Positions 37,935-47,611 of a stretch of 64,000 nt of DNA are shown in pieces. Each line of letters starts with the position of its first letter. Positions within the stretch are counted from its first letter, which is position 1. Source of the stretch: Acidovorax sp. (GTDB lineage: Bacteria > Pseudomonadota > Gammaproteobacteria > Burkholderiales > Burkholderiaceae_C); assembly GCA_031277855.1 (NCBI GenBank), contig JAITLO010000004.1:1-64000 (forward strand), written 5' to 3'. A program made the translations under genes and the position numbers. The notes below the pieces were generated by a model. It did no database searches. It had not been told where the DNA came from and saw only the letters and a program-made list of their open reading frames with translations.

Positions 37935-38642
37935 ATGTACCGAATCTTGGTGGTGGATGATGATGAGGAAATCACAGCGTTACTCAGCCAGTACCTGGGG
38001 CGCTTTGGTTTTGAAGTGCACTGCGCTGCCGACGGTGTGGGCATGCACAATCAGCTCAAAGCGCATCGTATTGACCTGGTGGTCATGGATGTGATGTTGC
38101 CCGGCGTGGATGGCATGACCTTGGCGCGCTTGCTGCGCCAGCAGTCCCAGATTCCCATCATCATGCTCACTGCTCGGGCAGAGTCCTATGACTGCGTGGT
38201 GGGACTGGAGCTGGGGGCGGACGACTATGTGGGCAAGCCTTTCGAGCCCAGAGAGCTGGTGGCCCGCATCCACAGTGTCCTGCGCCGCCATGGCCATGCC
38301 CAGCCCAATGCCCGTCAGGCTACCAATGTGCGCTTTGATGCCTGGACGCTGCAGCGCCTGGAACGCCAGGTGGTGGACCCCCAAGGCATGGTGGTGCCGC
38401 TGTCTTACGCCGAGTACCGCTTGCTGTGCACGCTGCTGGAGTCTCCACGCCGCGTCTTCAGCCGTGAGCAGCTGATGGAGCAAGCACGGGGCCGCAGCAT
38501 GGACAGCATGGACCGCAGCGTGGACCTGCTGGTCTCACGCCTGCGTCACAAGCTGGGTGAGGAGGGTGCGTCACTCATCAAAACCGTGCGCGGCGCAGGC
38601 TATATGCTGGACGCGCGCCAGGTACAGGCCAGTGCCGCATGA
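37935..38642 (+). CDS. OmpR-family response regulator
   Basis: This 235-residue regulator has a receiver domain with DDDEE at 8-12, the phosphorylation Asp52 in VVMDVMLPGVDG, Thr in MLTARAE and Lys in GKPFEPRE, followed by a winged-helix output domain (about 130-230, ending TVRGAGYMLDARQ). Its stop overlaps the start of the kinase gene by four bases (ATGA). It is closely related to the regulator at 40334-41068. Confidence 0.95.
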   Translation: MYRILVVDDDEEITALLSQYLGRFGFEVHCAADGVGMHNQLKAHRIDLVVMDVMLPGVDGMTLARLLRQQSQIPIIMLTARAESYDCVVGLELGADDYVGKPFEPRELVARIHSVLRRHGHAQPNARQATNVRFDAWTLQRLERQVVDPQGMVVPLSYAEYRLLCTLLESPRRVFSREQLMEQARGRSMDSMDRSVDLLVSRLRHKLGEEGASLIKTVRGAGYMLDARQVQASAA

Positions 38643-39862
38643 ATATGTCCGATGCTCCTGTTTCGCCTGGCTCCTTGGGGGCAAGCGGTTCACCCATGGG
38701 CACTCCAGCTTCTGCATCAAGGGGGGCGGAGGTATGGGGGCGCTGGCTGTCCCGCTGCTGGCCGGACACCTTGTTCGGCAGGCTGGCACTTTTGCTGGGG
38801 CTGGCGGTCATCATCAGCCATGTGCTGGCCTTGAGTCTGCTGTTTGAGTTTCGCCCTGCCCGGCAGCCGGAGCGGCAGATTTGTGTGATACCCGAGGTGC
38901 TCAGCCCCATCAACCCTGCGGCCGACAAGCCCTATGTGGTGGGGCGTGCGCTGCCCAAGCAACTGCAACCAGGTTACGCGACGCAACCATCCGAACCTAG
39001 GCCGCGACGCTTGCTACCTTTTTCGATTGATGTCGGCGTGCGTCTGGCAGTACTGCTGCTGGCAGCCTGGCTGGGCGCGCGCTGGTTGGCACAGCCCATG
39101 CGCCGTCTCGCCGCTGCGGCGCGGGAGCTGGGAAACAATATCAACCGCCCCCCTTTGCCCGAAACCGGCATGGTGGAGTGCAGAGAAGCCAGCCAGGTGT
39201 TCAACCAGATGCAAGAACGCATCCAGCAGCAGTTGCAGGACCGTGATCGCTTGGTGGCGGCAGTCTCACATGATTTGCGCACCCCGTTGACCCGCTTGCG
39301 CCTGCGTGCCGAGCTGCTGGATGACGCCGAGACCACGCAGGAATTTCAGCGCGACATTGCCGAGATGGAGGCAATGATTCAAGACACCCTGGACTATCTG
39401 CGCGGCCAGGCCCAAGGGGTGCCCATGGTACGTGTACAGCTGCAGGCCTTGTTGCAAAGCGTGGTGGACGACTATGCACTGGTGGGCGTGCAGATACCGC
39501 TGCGAGGTGAAGCCCGCCCTGTTCAGGCCCAGCCCGGGCAATTGCGCCGTTGTGTGGACAATTTGATTACCAATGCCTTGCGCTATGGCGGCAATGCCGA
39601 AGTAGGGCTGGAAGACGGGCCAGAGGGCGTGTGCATCACCGTACGGGACCATGGCCCCGGTTTACCCGAATCTGCCTTGCAGCAAGTGATGCAGCCCTTT
39701 GTCCGTATGGAGGCTTCACGCCATCGCCATCATGGGGGCGTAGGCTTGGGGCTGTCCATCGCCCGGGATATTGCACTGCGCCACCATGGCGAGCTCAAGC
39801 TGCTCAATGCTGCCGAAGGCGGTCTGTGTGCCGTACTGGAGTTGCCGCACAGCCAGCCTTGA
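38639..39862 (+). CDS. Sensor histidine kinase
   Basis: This 407-residue inner-membrane kinase has membrane segments at about 43-67 and 129-148, with a short periplasmic loop. HAMP is followed by the phospho-acceptor His211 in AAVSHDLRTPLTRLR, the N box DNLITNALRYGG, the G1 box DHGPGLPE and the G2 box GGVGLGLSIARDI. It is co-translated with the upstream regulator and resembles EnvZ-type kinases in layout. The signal is unknown. Confidence 0.94.
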   Translation: MNMSDAPVSPGSLGASGSPMGTPASASRGAEVWGRWLSRCWPDTLFGRLALLLGLAVIISHVLALSLLFEFRPARQPERQICVIPEVLSPINPAADKPYVVGRALPKQLQPGYATQPSEPRPRRLLPFSIDVGVRLAVLLLAAWLGARWLAQPMRRLAAAARELGNNINRPPLPETGMVECREASQVFNQMQERIQQQLQDRDRLVAAVSHDLRTPLTRLRLRAELLDDAETTQEFQRDIAEMEAMIQDTLDYLRGQAQGVPMVRVQLQALLQSVVDDYALVGVQIPLRGEARPVQAQPGQLRRCVDNLITNALRYGGNAEVGLEDGPEGVCITVRDHGPGLPESALQQVMQPFVRMEASRHRHHGGVGLGLSIARDIALRHHGELKLLNAAEGGLCAVLELPHSQP

Positions 39863-40333
39863 TACCTCGTGCGCCGCCGGGCTTTAACCCTCTACAGCGG
39901 TAGCTCCCGCCTCCTGCGCACGCTTTTGCTGGGCTGGAGCATGCAAGTGGTTCCCAGCACCTTGCGCTGGGATATGGACCCTATATGGAGCATGGCGAGC
40001 TGTTCGGGCTGCTGTGCCTGTTTTGTAGCTGCATATCGGGCGGCTCTTTATGTGCCGTTTCTGAGCTTATCGAGATAAAGCGGGCCAATAAAACACCAGC
40101 GTCAAATCCCATGCCAAGCGGTCATGGTGATATTGAAAGCAATAAGAATAAGTGTTCGGGTAAGTGCTTGGATATTTGTATCTATTATGTTTCTGATTTA
40201 TTCGAAAACTGATACGTAAAAATTTATAACTCTTTCAAAAACCACGCAGGTTTTTGAAAAACCTAGAACACAGGGCCATAAACTTGCTAATCAAAATGGC
40301 CATGAAATAGTTTGTTTTCACACAATTACTACT
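39863..40333. other. Gene-free, partly AT-rich region upstream of the second regulator
   Basis: These 471 bases carry no convincing gene. From about 40060 on, the composition is clearly more AT-rich than the rest of the window, which fits a promoter region or imported DNA. It contains the inverted repeat at 40233-40259. Confidence 0.55.
40233..40259. promoter_or_regulatory. Perfect 11-bp inverted repeat, operator candidate
   Basis: TTTCAAAAACC and GGTTTTTGAAA flank a 5-base spacer, 74 bases before the start of the regulator at 40334. The stem is AT-rich, with no T run after it, so an operator is more likely than a terminator. Confidence 0.55.
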
Positions 40334-41068
40334 ATGCATCACATCCTGGTGGTTGACGACGACGAGGAAATAACCACGCTGCTAACCCGCTACCTCACAC
40401 GCTTTGGTTTTGCCACTTATGTGGCCAGCGATGGCGATGGCATGCGTGCCCAGCTTGCAGCCCACCCCATAGATTTGGTGGTGTTGGACATCATGCTGCC
40501 GGGGGTGGATGGCATCCGCCTGGCCAAGGAGCTGCGCGAGCGCTCGCAACTGCCCATCATCATGTTGACGGCAAGAGCCAACCCTTTTGACTGCGTGCTG
40601 GGGCTGACGCTGGGCGCCAATGACTACATGGGCAAACCTTTTGAGCCCCGCGAGCTGGTGGCGCGCATACAAAACGTGTTGCGTTACACGGCGGCGGCTG
40701 CACAGGTGGGAGAGAACACCCAGGATCTGGCCGAAGTGGTGCAGTTTGATGGCTGGCAGCTCTACAGCATGGAGCGCTACCTGGTCGCACCCGATGGCAC
40801 GGTGGTGCCGCTGTCGGGGGCCGAGTTCCGCTTGCTGAGTACGTTTTTGCGCTCGCCGCGCCGGGTCTGCAGCCGGGACCGGCTGATGGAGATGGCGCAG
40901 GGGCGCACCATGGCAGCGTTCGAGCGCAGCATCGACCTGCTGGTCTCGCGCCTGCGCCAAAAGCTGGGAGACGATCCACGCGCGCCCACGCTGATCAAGA
41001 CCGTGCGCGGCGTGGGCTATCTGTTCGAGGCCCGCAAGGTGCAGGGGCAGACAGTCTGGCCTCGATGA
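40334..41068 (+). CDS. OmpR-family response regulator, without adjacent kinase
   Basis: This 244-residue regulator has DDDEE at 8-12, Asp52 in VVLDIMLPGVDG, Thr in MLTARAN, Lys in GKPFEPRE, and a winged-helix domain ending TVRGVGYLFEARKV. It is a clear paralogue of the regulator 2.4 kb upstream. No kinase gene follows; the nearby kinase may serve both. The AT-rich leader with an inverted repeat suggests its own regulation. Confidence 0.94.
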   Translation: MHHILVVDDDEEITTLLTRYLTRFGFATYVASDGDGMRAQLAAHPIDLVVLDIMLPGVDGIRLAKELRERSQLPIIMLTARANPFDCVLGLTLGANDYMGKPFEPRELVARIQNVLRYTAAAAQVGENTQDLAEVVQFDGWQLYSMERYLVAPDGTVVPLSGAEFRLLSTFLRSPRRVCSRDRLMEMAQGRTMAAFERSIDLLVSRLRQKLGDDPRAPTLIKTVRGVGYLFEARKVQGQTVWPR

Positions 41069-41104: not shown

Positions 41105-41698
41105 TCAAGCCGGAGCCTGGCCCAGCAGCGCGGTTTTGAGTCGCGGATCGGCGGGTTGCTCGCCCAGCCAGATATTGAGCAGGGCGTTGTAGAAGGCGAT
41201 GTCCTGTATGGGTTGAACCACCGGGCGCTGGTTGTGTTCTATCACCGTGCCGGTACCGGGAATCCAGTCCAGTGTCAGCAGGTCGCCGCAGCGCAGGCCG
41301 GCAGGCAGGCGTGCAATGGCCTGGCTGAGTGCCTCCATCTGCTCCAGCACACGGGCATCTGCATGGGCCAGGTCTTTGGACAGTTTCTCCAGGACTGCGG
41401 CCTCGAAATCCTGAGAAGAAATATCGCGCATCAGCCGTATCACCAGGCGGCGCGGGCCATTGCTTTGCAGCACCGCCTCGGTGGTGCGGCGCTGGTCAGG
41501 CAGATACAGGCTGACGGCATAGATCTTGAACATCAAGCGCGTGCTGATGCCGGCGCCATTGAGCAGCAGGTGCTGGCCGGCCACTTGCACGGATTTGCCG
41601 GCCATGGCGGCATCGGTTTCGGCTGGGTGCGCCAGGCCGGGTAGGCAGGAGGCGACGCAGGAGGCGAGCGCCAGGGCGCGTTGGTAGGGGTGGTACAT
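41105..41698 (-). CDS. Chalcone-isomerase-like periplasmic protein
   Basis: This protein of 197 residues has an N-terminal signal peptide (ALALASCVASCLPGLAHPA) and a body of the chalcone isomerase-like fold: GAGISTRLMFKIYAVSLYLP near residue 50, then RRLVIRLMRDISSQDFEAAV and, near the end, DIAFYNALLNIWLGEQPAD. Bacterial members have no known enzymatic role; some relatives bind fatty acids. GAGGAG precedes the ATG at 41698. It is the last gene of the minus-strand cluster with flgH. Confidence 0.82.
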   Translation of the reverse strand: MYHPYQRALALASCVASCLPGLAHPAETDAAMAGKSVQVAGQHLLLNGAGISTRLMFKIYAVSLYLPDQRRTTEAVLQSNGPRRLVIRLMRDISSQDFEAAVLEKLSKDLAHADARVLEQMEALSQAIARLPAGLRCGDLLTLDWIPGTGTVIEHNQRPVVQPIQDIAFYNALLNIWLGEQPADPRLKTALLGQAPA

Positions 41699-41784
41699 GG
41701 CTTGCTCCTCGCAAACGGAACGCAGCATCCGGCCTTGCTGCAGAAAAAAGAGGCTGCCGGGAGAGAAAAAACTGCAGCCAGGCC

Positions 41785-42507
41785 TCACCAAATGGCCAGG
41801 CTGTTGGTGAGAACACGCTGCATCCAGGTACGTCGGCCGGCTTCCGAGGTGTCGCCGCGCCCGGCCACTTCCAGCATGGCGTTGATGACATCGGCGGAGC
41901 CCACGATGTTTTCGGGGCGCAGATCGCGCGGGTCGACCACCCCGGAAAAGCGCAGCGTCTTGACGTCGCCATTCATGGAAATGGCGCGCTCGCCCGCCAC
42001 CACCAGATAGCCGTTGGGCAGCACATTGATCACAGACACCGCAATCTGTCCGGTAAAGCTGCTGCTATTGCTGGTGCTGCCATCACCCTTGAAGTAGTCA
42101 CTGCCCGAGGCCTCGGCATCCAGGTTCAGCACCGAGCCCAGAAAGCCAGTGCCGGAGTTGCTGCCCGGCCCTTTGTTGATGATTTCGTTTTCGCGGCTGG
42201 TATCGGTTTTGGCCGTGCTGCTGGCGTTCATGGACTCTGCGATGTCCACTTTCAGGCTGTCACCCACATTGCGTGGCTTGGCGCGTCCGCTGAAGGGATC
42301 GTTGAAGCTGCGGGCTCGGAAAAGACCACCGGTATTCACACGCTCGATGGCGGCCTGGCGGGGTGGGGCTGCCACCGATACGGGGGCCGTGACTATGCTG
42401 GGCTCGGTGGTGCTGCAGCCAGTCAGCAGACCGGAGCACAAGAAGATGGACAGGGCCGTGAATAGGGGGGCAGAGGCCTGCCAGCAAGAAGAGGAAAGCG
42501 AGGGCAT
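41785..42507 (-). CDS. FlgH-like outer-membrane L-ring lipoprotein (orphan)
   Basis: This 240-residue protein resembles FlgH, the lipoprotein that forms the flagellar L ring. A signal peptide ends in LLTGC with the lipidated Cys at 31. The body carries the FlgH pattern: NTGGLFRARSFNDPFSGRAK, then VGDSLKVDIAESMNASS, then VINVLPNGYLVVAGERAI and FSGVVDPRDLRPENIVGS. AGGAG precedes the ATG at 42507. None of the usual partners (flgG, flgI) is nearby; instead it sits between a lipoprotein gene and a chalcone-isomerase-like gene. Confidence 0.88.
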   Translation of the reverse strand: MPSLSSSCWQASAPLFTALSIFLCSGLLTGCSTTEPSIVTAPVSVAAPPRQAAIERVNTGGLFRARSFNDPFSGRAKPRNVGDSLKVDIAESMNASSTAKTDTSRENEIINKGPGSNSGTGFLGSVLNLDAEASGSDYFKGDGSTSNSSSFTGQIAVSVINVLPNGYLVVAGERAISMNGDVKTLRFSGVVDPRDLRPENIVGSADVINAMLEVAGRGDTSEAGRRTWMQRVLTNSLAIW

Positions 42508-42557
42508 CGTCGGCTCCTGGGTGCAAGAGGTGGGCGTGGATTGGGGCGTTGGGAGGG

Positions 42558-43103
42558 TCAATAGCCCGTGACCAGGGCCGAGACCACGGGACTCAGCTTG
42601 GTGCGGGTATCGCCCCACTTGCCTTTGAGCAAATGGGTGTCGAGCTGGAATTGGCTGGCGGAGAGCAAGGCGCCGTTGTGCGAGCGCAGCGCCAGTTGCG
42701 CGGAGCTCATATAGGGACGCAGCTCGCCGGTGAGTGGGGTGATGCCCCAGTCGAAATAGGCGGTGTATTCCAGCCAGATGGGGCACAGCCGGGCGGCGGG
42801 CGGGCTGTCATAGACCTTGCTGTCTATGCCGTGGGATTGCAGCTCGGTCTGCAGCACCGGCACCAGGTCGGGAACCTGGATATCGGGGTTGAACGCAATG
42901 CATACATTGCTGGGCACGCTGTGCAGGCGATAGAAGGTGCTGGAGGCCTCGGGGGCGGCGGTGGACATGGCGGTGCTGGCCAGCCCGCCGGTGGCCTTGA
43001 CCAGCTCCCACAGCGGCATGGGGGTGATGATGGAGCAGCCAGCCAGCAAGGTGCAGGCGGCCAGGCCCAAGGCGCGGCGCCGAAAAAGCAAAAAGGCTTG
43101 CAT
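42558..43103 (-). CDS. Lipoprotein of unknown function
   Basis: This 181-residue protein has a positively charged start, a hydrophobic stretch and the lipobox LLAGC (Cys23). The mature part has CPIWLEYTAYFDWGITPLTG near residue 106 and a C-terminus (KWGDTRTKLSPVVSALVTGY) like that of small lipoproteins annotated as Sbal_3080 family; this assignment is from memory and unsure. AGGAGACG precedes the ATG. It lies between flgH-like (50 bases) and the repeat-protein gene (21 bases). Confidence 0.8.
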   Translation of the reverse strand: MQAFLLFRRRALGLAACTLLAGCSIITPMPLWELVKATGGLASTAMSTAAPEASSTFYRLHSVPSNVCIAFNPDIQVPDLVPVLQTELQSHGIDSKVYDSPPAARLCPIWLEYTAYFDWGITPLTGELRPYMSSAQLALRSHNGALLSASQFQLDTHLLKGKWGDTRTKLSPVVSALVTGY

Positions 43104-43124
43104 GCTCGTCTCCTGGCGCGGGAG

Positions 43125-43736
43125 TCAAACCATCTCGCTCAGCATGGAGCCCACGGTGTTGGCACCCAGGGCCAGGTAGTTGCCCACGCTTTTGGCGCCG
43201 CTGCCCACGGCATCGGCCACGGTGGTGGCCCCTGTTTCCAGCGCATCGAGCACGCTGTCGGTCCCGGACTCCAGGGCATCCAGCACCGCATCGCTGCCGG
43301 ATTCCAGTGCATCCACCACCGCATCAGCACCGCTCTCCACAGCATTCGCCACGGCTTCGCCGCCAGACTCCAGTGCATCCATGACGGTTTCTGCGCTGCT
43401 GCTCACCGCCTCCACCAGCGTGTCTGCTCCGGCCTCCAGGCTGCCCCATACGGACTCCATGGCATCGCCCACTGCATCGGTGGCCGCGCCGAGCATTTCG
43501 GCGCTGCTGTCCATGGCATCTCCTGCCCAGTCAGCGACGCCGCTGGCCGCGTCTTCCATGGCTGTTCCGAGCAGGGCCAGGCTTTCGGCGCTGAAGGTGC
43601 AAATGGCACTGACCGTGCTGCCGGTATCCGTTGGGGCCTGGGCTTGGGTGCTAGCCCGGGTGCTCCGGGCTTGCGTGGTCTGTGGTGTGGCCAGCGAACG
43701 GGCACTGGTGCTGGAAATCGATGTGATATCGCTCAT
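43125..43736 (-). CDS. Acidic 11-residue-repeat protein
   Basis: This 203-residue protein has a Ser/Thr/Ala-rich, probably disordered N-terminus (1-45) without signal peptide, then from about residue 87 to the end tandem 11-residue units of the type DALESGSDAVL. Unit starts fall at 120, 131, 142, 153, 164, 175 and 186. The DNA shows matching 33-bp tandem repeats. Such 11-mers form long amphipathic helices. GGAGG precedes the ATG at 43736. It is the first gene of the four-gene minus-strand cluster. The function is unknown. Confidence 0.82.
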   Translation of the reverse strand: MSDITSISSTSARSLATPQTTQARSTRASTQAQAPTDTGSTVSAICTFSAESLALLGTAMEDAASGVADWAGDAMDSSAEMLGAATDAVGDAMESVWGSLEAGADTLVEAVSSSAETVMDALESGGEAVANAVESGADAVVDALESGSDAVLDALESGTDSVLDALETGATTVADAVGSGAKSVGNYLALGANTVGSMLSEMV

Positions 43737-44035: not shown

Positions 44036-44341
44036 ATGAATCCCTTGCAAGCCATTCAAACCGTGCGTGGCATCAGCCACCTGGGTGATGCCGTGCAGCA
44101 AAAGCGCTCTGCGGGGGATGTGGCCGGGGCCGTGGTCGGTACGGCCTACTCTGTTCAAAGCGCGGGCCTGGGCAGCCTGGCCAGCGGCGTGGTGGAAGAT
44201 GTGACGTCGGTGCTGGTCGATGGTGTGGTGGCCGGTGTGTCCGAAGTGGTGGATACCACCACCGCTGCAGGGCGCGCCGTGGCTTCCTACACCAGCCAGG
44301 GCATGCAAAACCTGGGCAAGCTGGTGGATTTTTTTGCCTGA
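44036..44341 (+). CDS. Small protein with 11-residue periodicity
   Basis: This 101-residue protein has no signal peptide. Residues 51-101 follow an 11-residue rhythm (GVVEDVTSVLV, DGVVAGVSEVV, DTTTAAGRAVA, SYTSQGMQNLG), like that of the divergent neighbour. It is Val- and Ala-rich and likely amphipathic helical. No clear ribosome-binding site precedes the ATG, but codon use matches the window. I do not recognise the family. Confidence 0.65.
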   Translation: MNPLQAIQTVRGISHLGDAVQQKRSAGDVAGAVVGTAYSVQSAGLGSLASGVVEDVTSVLVDGVVAGVSEVVDTTTAAGRAVASYTSQGMQNLGKLVDFFA

Positions 44342-47061: not shown

Positions 47062-47140
47062 GCATCGCTGGGGAAGCGCCGCGCTTTCTTGAGCGTTTTA
47101 GCTGTCCCCTGCTCATGCCCCTGCGCTGCGCGCGGTGTTA

Positions 47141-47238
47141 CCCCTTCCCCTGCGGGGGAAGGCAGGGATGGGGGCAGACCCCTTGTCTTGCCCCCTCTCC
47201 CGCTTGCGGGAGAGGGCAGGGGTGAGGGGCGGTCCCAT
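47141..47238. repeat. Dispersed C-rich repeat, family B
   Basis: Two hairpin units (CCCTTCCCCTGC / GGGGGAAGG and CTCTCCCGC / GCGGGAGAG) joined by a G-rich and C-rich linker. It corresponds to the 24608-24708 element in inverted order and fills the gap after the SRAP-like gene. Confidence 0.6.
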
Positions 47239-47263
47239 GGGCACCAAGCTGAACCCGAACGAC

Positions 47264-47611
47264 TCAGGCTGCAGCAGGCTGTTGCCGCCCCAGCACTCTG
47301 CGCACCGCTGCATAGAGACCAGCCACCCAACTGGGCTGCGGCGCAGGCTCCAGCAGCTGCAACTGCACGGGATTGCTATCCAGGCAGTCCAGATGCAGCC
47401 ATACCGGCATGCCATCGTGGCCGCCCTCCATGTGCTGGCCGCAGGCCAGCTCGCGCTGCTGGGCCAGCAGCACCTGGCCCCATACCAGCGGGCCGCTGCG
47501 CACGCCCACACGGCCTTGTAGGCACAGCAAACGCCAGCCGGGTGGCAGGCACAGCACAGGGGTGGTGCGTGGATTGATGGGCTGTGTAGCGGTGGTGGCA
47601 GCGGGCTGCAT
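47264..47611 (-). CDS. Small hypothetical protein, possibly DUF2917-like
   Basis: This 115-residue protein has a segment LPPGWRLLCLQGRVGVRSG near residue 23 that resembles DUF2917 proteins (start of a small beta-rich fold), followed by no recognised motif. GGAAAG lies 8 bases before the ATG at 47611. It diverges from the MocR-type regulator gene, whose target it could be. The assignment is tentative. Confidence 0.5.
   Translation of the reverse strand: MQPAATTATQPINPRTTPVLCLPPGWRLLCLQGRVGVRSGPLVWGQVLLAQQRELACGQHMEGGHDGMPVWLHLDCLDSNPVQLQLLEPAPQPSWVAGLYAAVRRVLGRQQPAAA

Follow-up and report, generated by a model that had tools for sequence, protein, structure and literature searches.

A conserved FlgH-type outer-membrane gene module in Acidovorax and its relatives, possibly an exchangeable flagellar L-ring

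A stretch of 64,000 nucleotides from Acidovorax sp. (assembly GCA_031277855.1, contig JAITLO010000004.1, positions 1 to 64,000; the window) was analysed around a cluster of four minus-strand genes at positions 41105 to 43736. Three of these encode an acidic protein with 11-residue repeats (REP), a lipoprotein (LP) and a paralogue of the flagellar L-ring protein FlgH (FlgH2), and it is well supported that they are the core of a conserved outer-membrane module to which the fourth, a Chalcone_3 gene, is accessory. A swappable flagellar L-ring module is favoured over an independent outer-membrane exporter as the interpretation of this gene set, although our confidence in it is evenly balanced.

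The genes follow one another in the order REP, LP, FlgH2 and Chalcone_3 with intergenic gaps of 21, 50 and 86 bp, and an AGGAG/GGAGG-type ribosome-binding site precedes each of the four ATGs (GGAGGacgccATG, AGGAGacgagcATG, AGGAGccgacgATG and GAGGAGcaagccATG). Homologues of FlgE, FlgF, FlgG, FlgI, FlgJ and FlgK were not found in the window by tblastn with the genome's own proteins as queries (E 1e-8). The source genome has another FlgH (G000:C26) with FlgI adjoining, and the open reading frame (ORF) on its other side was read as flgG. Together with the family matches and the REP composition given below, this confirms the observations in the preliminary description of this DNA, which had reported four close minus-strand genes with strong ribosome-binding sites, an acidic 11-mer protein lacking a signal peptide, FlgH-type and chalcone-isomerase-like products, and neither flgG nor flgI beside this FlgH. 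It had also proposed that its idea would fail if this flgH were the only one in the host, which is not the case.

FlgH2 (41785 to 42507, minus strand, 240 aa) matched PF02107 with 148.9 bits (cut-off 27, E 1.5e-43) over positions 3-169 of the 172 in the profile, and the flagellar FlgH structure 7bgl with E 5.5e-27 across residues 24-235. It scored under every NCBIfam FlgH equivalog cut-off listed, the best being 137.5 bits against 280. A lipoprotein signal with a lipid Cys was read from the sequence, and C31 is conserved in 90% or more of 27 members. FlgH2 forms a clade of its own, set apart from flagellar FlgH. In a survey of 399 genomes of the family, the scores against the FlgH2 profile were split by a clean gap, with 44 matches (41 genomes) at 280-384 bits and none of the others above 171. 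In a tree of 64 proteins, a branch supported at 99/93 parted 36 FlgH2-type proteins from 28 flagellar FlgH; long branches among some of the flagellar rows drew a warning from the program. Within the same 64 proteins, the C-terminal residue is W in 35 of the 36 FlgH2-type proteins (the exception being L117) and F in all 28 flagellar ones. A protein search with FlgH2 returned 246 relatives, and among the 120 listed the close named ones belong to Comamonas, Xylophilus, Rhizobacter, Curvibacter and Roseateles.

When one genome per species was scanned, 188 relatives were confirmed, and the 80 best loci of these are the basis of every count out of 80. In 78/80 loci LP is no more than 3 kb away from FlgH2, being upstream on the same strand in 69 and downstream on the opposite strand in nine. 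The two misses are L090, on a record that begins immediately ahead of FlgH2, and L065, a second FlgH2 of Curvibacter lanceolatus that has no recognisable LP gene and is possibly decaying. A REP-like ORF was found between 3 kb upstream and 1.5 kb downstream of FlgH2 in 56 loci, compared with one of 132 equally wide control windows taken from the same loci. The REP rule combined composition, helix periodicity and a ribosome-binding site, and was fixed after sequences had been read. Among its 24 misses, a REP-like gene was seen by eye, and left uncounted, in L073, L079, L082, L091, L102, L089, L105 and L109; L033 has a divergent one, and L090 runs into the end of its record. The Chalcone_3 gene (41105 to 41698, minus strand, 197 aa), whose product has an N-terminus that reads as a signal peptide, meets PF16036 with 124.5 bits (cut-off 27, E 5.9e-36) and such a gene follows FlgH2 in 24/80 loci.

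Elsewhere the gene order varies: in Rhodocyclales and Aquabacterium, LP, REP and FlgH2 stay together in other arrangements. LP also stands beside FlgH2 in the more distant loci L113-L115 (three genomes from another family of the order) and in L117, with a REP match in L115 and a REP-like gene seen by eye in L113. In its own genus the FlgH2 module was present in three of 37 genomes (the source, G004 and G032; 61 genomes searched), and in the family survey FlgH2 was carried by 41/399 genomes, or 21/141 genera. An evenly drawn survey of the order gave scores above 300 bits in 2/399 genomes, and one further family has related proteins that score about 200 bits. No literature on this module was found by title or start of abstract among papers under CC0, CC BY and CC BY-SA licences, and none of the papers listed there for Scleromatobacter motility mentions the genus. 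In Roseateles and relatives a very large ORF follows FlgH2 on the same strand (L043:8804-14503, and similarly in L039, L040, L042, L045 and L053); the L043 protein, the sole one scanned, has Big_13 immunoglobulin-like domains.

LP (42558 to 43103, minus strand, 181 aa) has its lipid Cys at position 23 and two more invariant Cys at 68 and 107. Near the N-terminus, 38/48 LP proteins have a hydrophobic stretch like that of a signal peptide, against 3/63 REP proteins. LP had no Pfam family at E values up to 1, and a PDB sequence search with the LP profile gave no significant match; a weak match to NF040519 (Sbal_3080 lipoprotein) reached 46.6 bits against a cut-off of 80. The proteins FlgT, FlgO and FlgP belong to the Vibrio-type H-ring around the paired flagellar L- and P-rings, and Pfam has models for all three. 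The predicted fold of LP is closest to PelC, the ring-forming lipoprotein of the Pel exporter, with 11-17% identity in the alignments to PelC. By this predicted fold LP falls, like FlgH2, in a fold family with ring-forming outer-membrane members.

LP matches were found in 6/369 genomes at class level, the source genome included. LP-type domains also occur alone, because no ORF of the stretches fetched from the five other genomes matched the FlgH2 profile at E 1e-3. LP-type lipoproteins of other genomes of the class without an FlgH2-type gene nearby are seen in L127-L131. In public records LP is called 'cell division protein FtsI' (P0128, P0130, P0152), a name to which the sequence and the predicted fold give no support.

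REP (43125 to 43736, minus strand, 203 aa) has 60 lag-11 identities in 192 residue pairs, compared with 19.9 on average and 38 at most in 5000 permutations. It contains 31 D+E and 4 K+R, and its first 40 residues, Ser/Thr-rich at the N-terminus, read as polar and not as a signal peptide. The members read are 66-244 residues long, and in those above 130 residues the mean hydropathy autocorrelation has its maxima at 11 and 18, as is characteristic of an amphipathic helix. The helices are amphipathic and partly glycine-rich, the AlphaFold2 model contains helices only (mean predicted local distance difference test score 55, a low confidence that does not allow a fold search), and the Pfam matches are to helical families only, all under cut-off; an amphipathic helix pattern is all that the REP sequence shows. 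The Ser/Thr/Asn/Ile content of residues 2-12, a measure of composition only, averages 0.54 in 63 REP proteins against 0.19 in 329 neighbouring genes, and in seven flagellar N-termini it ranges over 0.27-0.82. In composition, the REP N-terminus resembles those of some flagellar type III substrates. A REP profile search scored 7999 candidates and gave 37 proteins, mostly unnamed, some with 'phage-related' labels that were given no weight. A role for REP as a type I secretion substrate or a glycine-zipper bacteriocin was considered and dropped, as no transporter turned up constantly among the annotated neighbours.

FlgH2 occurs together with flagellar genes. FlgI was found in 41/41 FlgH2 genomes of the family survey against 320/399 overall, with a hypergeometric P of 7e-5 by genome, kinship being ignored, and of 3e-3 by genus, using FlgH presence in the 21/141 genera and likewise uncorrected for kinship. 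In addition, 73 FlgH2 genomes (43 + 30) were queried, leaving out seven loci whose genome was already represented by another locus. A further FlgH match was present in 71 of these, the exceptions being G103, which is Scleromatobacter humisilvae and has FlgI and FHIPEP, and G1238, a 2.6-Mb metagenome assembly in which no FlgI was found. FHIPEP was found in 42 of the 43 (the miss, G077, has FlgI), and FlgI in 28 of the other 30. The number of flagellar FlgH, taken as all FlgH2-profile matches minus those of at least 280 bits, was compared with the number of FlgI in the 41 surveyed genomes and equals it in 37.

The only four mismatches (G605, G816, G687 and G756) all belong to the Scleromatobacter group (g288), and each is one flagellar FlgH short. 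In the main flg operon of this group flgG runs directly into flgI, with a stop/start overlap and no flgH, in 4/4 loci. In L147-L149 flgE, flgF, flgJ and flgK are in place, and the contig of L150 begins inside flgG, of which it has the last third, and continues with flgI, flgJ and flgK. G687 and G756 carry a second FlgI with its own FlgH adjoining. In G605/G103 and in G816, FlgH2 is the sole FlgH found by a PF02107 search that scored every candidate, and G605 reads as 100% complete. The pairs G103/G605, G756/G1254 and G687/G1256 share the same coordinates and are apparently the same genomes. The FlgH2 proteins of the group (L107, L110 and L111) lie inside the FlgH2 clade and have kept LP and REP.

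Keeping FlgH2 in the absence of an operon flgH points to an L-ring function. The P- and L-rings are described in PMC11247099 as required for a functional extracellular filament, and FlgH2 as the L-ring of the Scleromatobacter group is therefore the simplest reading. Judged from this group, FlgH2 is likely able to serve as a flagellar L-ring, and from the gene content it likely supplies the missing ring there.

In the mechanism that we propose, FlgH2 probably assembles into an alternative outer-membrane ring that serves the flagellum, the PelC-like LP is predicted to sit on this ring as a collar, and REP is presumed to be an exported partner. FlgH2 would make up the L-ring in the Scleromatobacter group, and elsewhere, the source species included, it would replace or supplement the ordinary L-ring once a neighbouring regulator switches the module on. 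REP may leave via the flagellar export gate and line or seal the ring, which is the least certain step. The roles given to LP and REP, and the reason why most hosts keep both FlgH types, are what we infer. In a fuller version the module would be a portable cassette that combines an alternative L-ring protein with a PelC-type ring lipoprotein and a flagellum-exported helical protein, and its takeover of the L-ring would be complete in the Scleromatobacter group. This version is put forward tentatively, and we consider it possible rather than probable.

Several observations weigh against a flagellar L-ring module. None of the 80 loci contains a FlgE, FlgF, FlgG, FlgI, FlgJ or FlgK homologue, and the distribution is patchy, as the 3/37 genomes of the own genus and the 2/399 of the order survey make plain. 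The best fold match of LP is to part of a polysaccharide exporter and not of a flagellum. Since an ordinary FlgH accompanies each FlgI in 37/41 FlgH2 genomes, the spare is not needed for the L-ring as such. Nor is the need for an L-ring absolute in every background, because PMC11247099 reports external filaments for a flgH deletion also lacking flhE. Four FlgI-positive, FlgH2-free genomes of the family survey (G604, G739, G747 and G751) gave no FlgH match, in a survey that scored up to seven candidates per genome and may have overlooked FlgH in places. In the nearly complete genome G747 (L153), flgI, flgJ and flgK are found without flgG or flgH across the 10 kb fetched, and flgH can therefore be lost by decay; the locus looks like a broken or split operon, not a clean absence of a single gene. 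Finally, neither sigma-28 nor sigma-54 promoters were clearly enriched upstream of REP. Over the 300 bases preceding REP, the top sigma-28 score had a mean of 9.67 of 16, with 9.41 for dinucleotide-matched random sequence; it was at least 12 in 3/64 (4.7%) against 2.2% at random, the source window being one of the three, and the sigma-54 score was 7.91 against 7.94. This promoter signal is too weak to use.

The preliminary description had presented the four genes as a candidate new envelope system and asked whether they stay together across genomes. LP and REP do stay with FlgH2, and the neighbours are not random, but the chalcone-isomerase-like protein is not supported as a core part. The 11-mer protein, for which a role as substrate or lipid binder had been suggested, shows in its sequence an amphipathic helix pattern only, and both roles would be candidates. 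As for the system itself, a conserved gene set outside the flagellar operon and a PelC-like LP fold speak for it, whereas its independence from the flagellum is challenged because FlgI is present in all 41 FlgH2 genomes and the Scleromatobacter group retains FlgH2 and has a main flg operon without flgH.

That independence is the substance of the strongest alternative, an outer-membrane export or display complex in which a PelC-like LP ring on the FlgH2 ring would secrete or display REP or another polymer with no part played by a flagellum. We consider it a less probable, though serious, contender. It leaves unexplained both the FlgI in every FlgH2 genome of the survey and the absence of just flgH from the Scleromatobacter flg operon, and no inner-membrane motor, polymer synthase or transporter was a constant neighbour, among neighbours that were annotated in part. 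An improbable alternative is a plug or seal, with FlgH2, LP and REP closing or capping the L-ring once a flagellum has been shed or as long as none is built. The same co-occurrence with flagellar genes would follow, the amphipathic and partly glycine-rich REP helices could seat in a ring, and there are regulators near the module; a plug would however need no ring paralogue of its own and does not explain the Scleromatobacter operon, and we know of no plug among sequences like those of the module. That FlgH2 is a decaying flgH duplicate with chance neighbours, as the L065 copy might suggest, is very improbable, being contradicted by the pairing of FlgH2 and LP in 78/80 loci, the many invariant residues and the tight spacing.

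The L-ring usually counts as an invariable component of the Gram-negative flagellum. If the module is indeed a flagellar one, this outer bushing would be exchangeable, as a second L-ring type, which has a ring-fold lipoprotein and a helical partner of its own, seems to have replaced the original in one genus, and flagellar rings would be linked to outer-membrane lipoproteins of the PelC/CsgG class. Otherwise the module would be an outer-membrane complex, undescribed as far as our literature search reaches, in 21/141 genera of the family survey. Culturable relatives for a direct test exist in Comamonas, Roseateles, Curvibacter and Scleromatobacter.

The module of the source genome has regulatory genes on one side. 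A histidine kinase and two OmpR-type response regulators adjoin it on the plus strand (37935 to 41068), the nearer regulator (40334 to 41068) being convergent with the module. OmpR-type regulators of one cluster were found in 23/80 loci as well as in the window, and CRP-like regulators in 20/80. On the other side, divergent from REP, lies a gene for a protein of 101 aa (44036 to 44341, plus strand) that has no Pfam or NCBIfam family. Its position is kept in the same-genus module loci L118 and L119, and it is also present in L034 and L035. This protein is weakly REP-like, with a BLAST similarity to Aquabacterium REP at E about 4e-8 when composition correction and filtering are off. Further along the window, at about 47090-47330, a proline/glycine-rich pattern (PLAGEGRGEG, SPASGRG) appears in the translations of both strands, of a kind known from dispersed palindromic repeats of Proteobacteria.

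Apart from the H-ring proteins, three known systems can be set beside the module. According to PMC12141448, twelve PelC lipoproteins form a periplasmic ring that sits on the PelB barrel. LP shares the predicted fold and the lipoprotein anchor with this part of the PelBC exopolysaccharide exporter, but its alignments to PelC are at the low identity given above, it has no Pfam match and it carries two extra invariant Cys; no PelB was noticed among the conserved module neighbours, which were annotated in part. Shewanella piezotolerans WP3 has a dual flagellar set with flgH1 and flgH2, and two FlgH types per cell are common to it and to the genomes studied here. The abstract of PMC5178100 speaks of polar and lateral flagellar structural genes in that case. 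In contrast, FlgH2 here has no adjoining flgI or rod genes, and in most of its hosts flagellar FlgH already equals FlgI in number. With flagellar FlgH itself, as represented by PF02107 and 7bgl, FlgH2 is homologous over nearly its full length and shares the lipoprotein signal with its Cys and an aromatic last residue. It differs in forming a separate clade that ends in W and not F, in scoring below the equivalog cut-offs, and in lying outside the flg operon, linked to LP and REP instead of standing between flgG and flgI.
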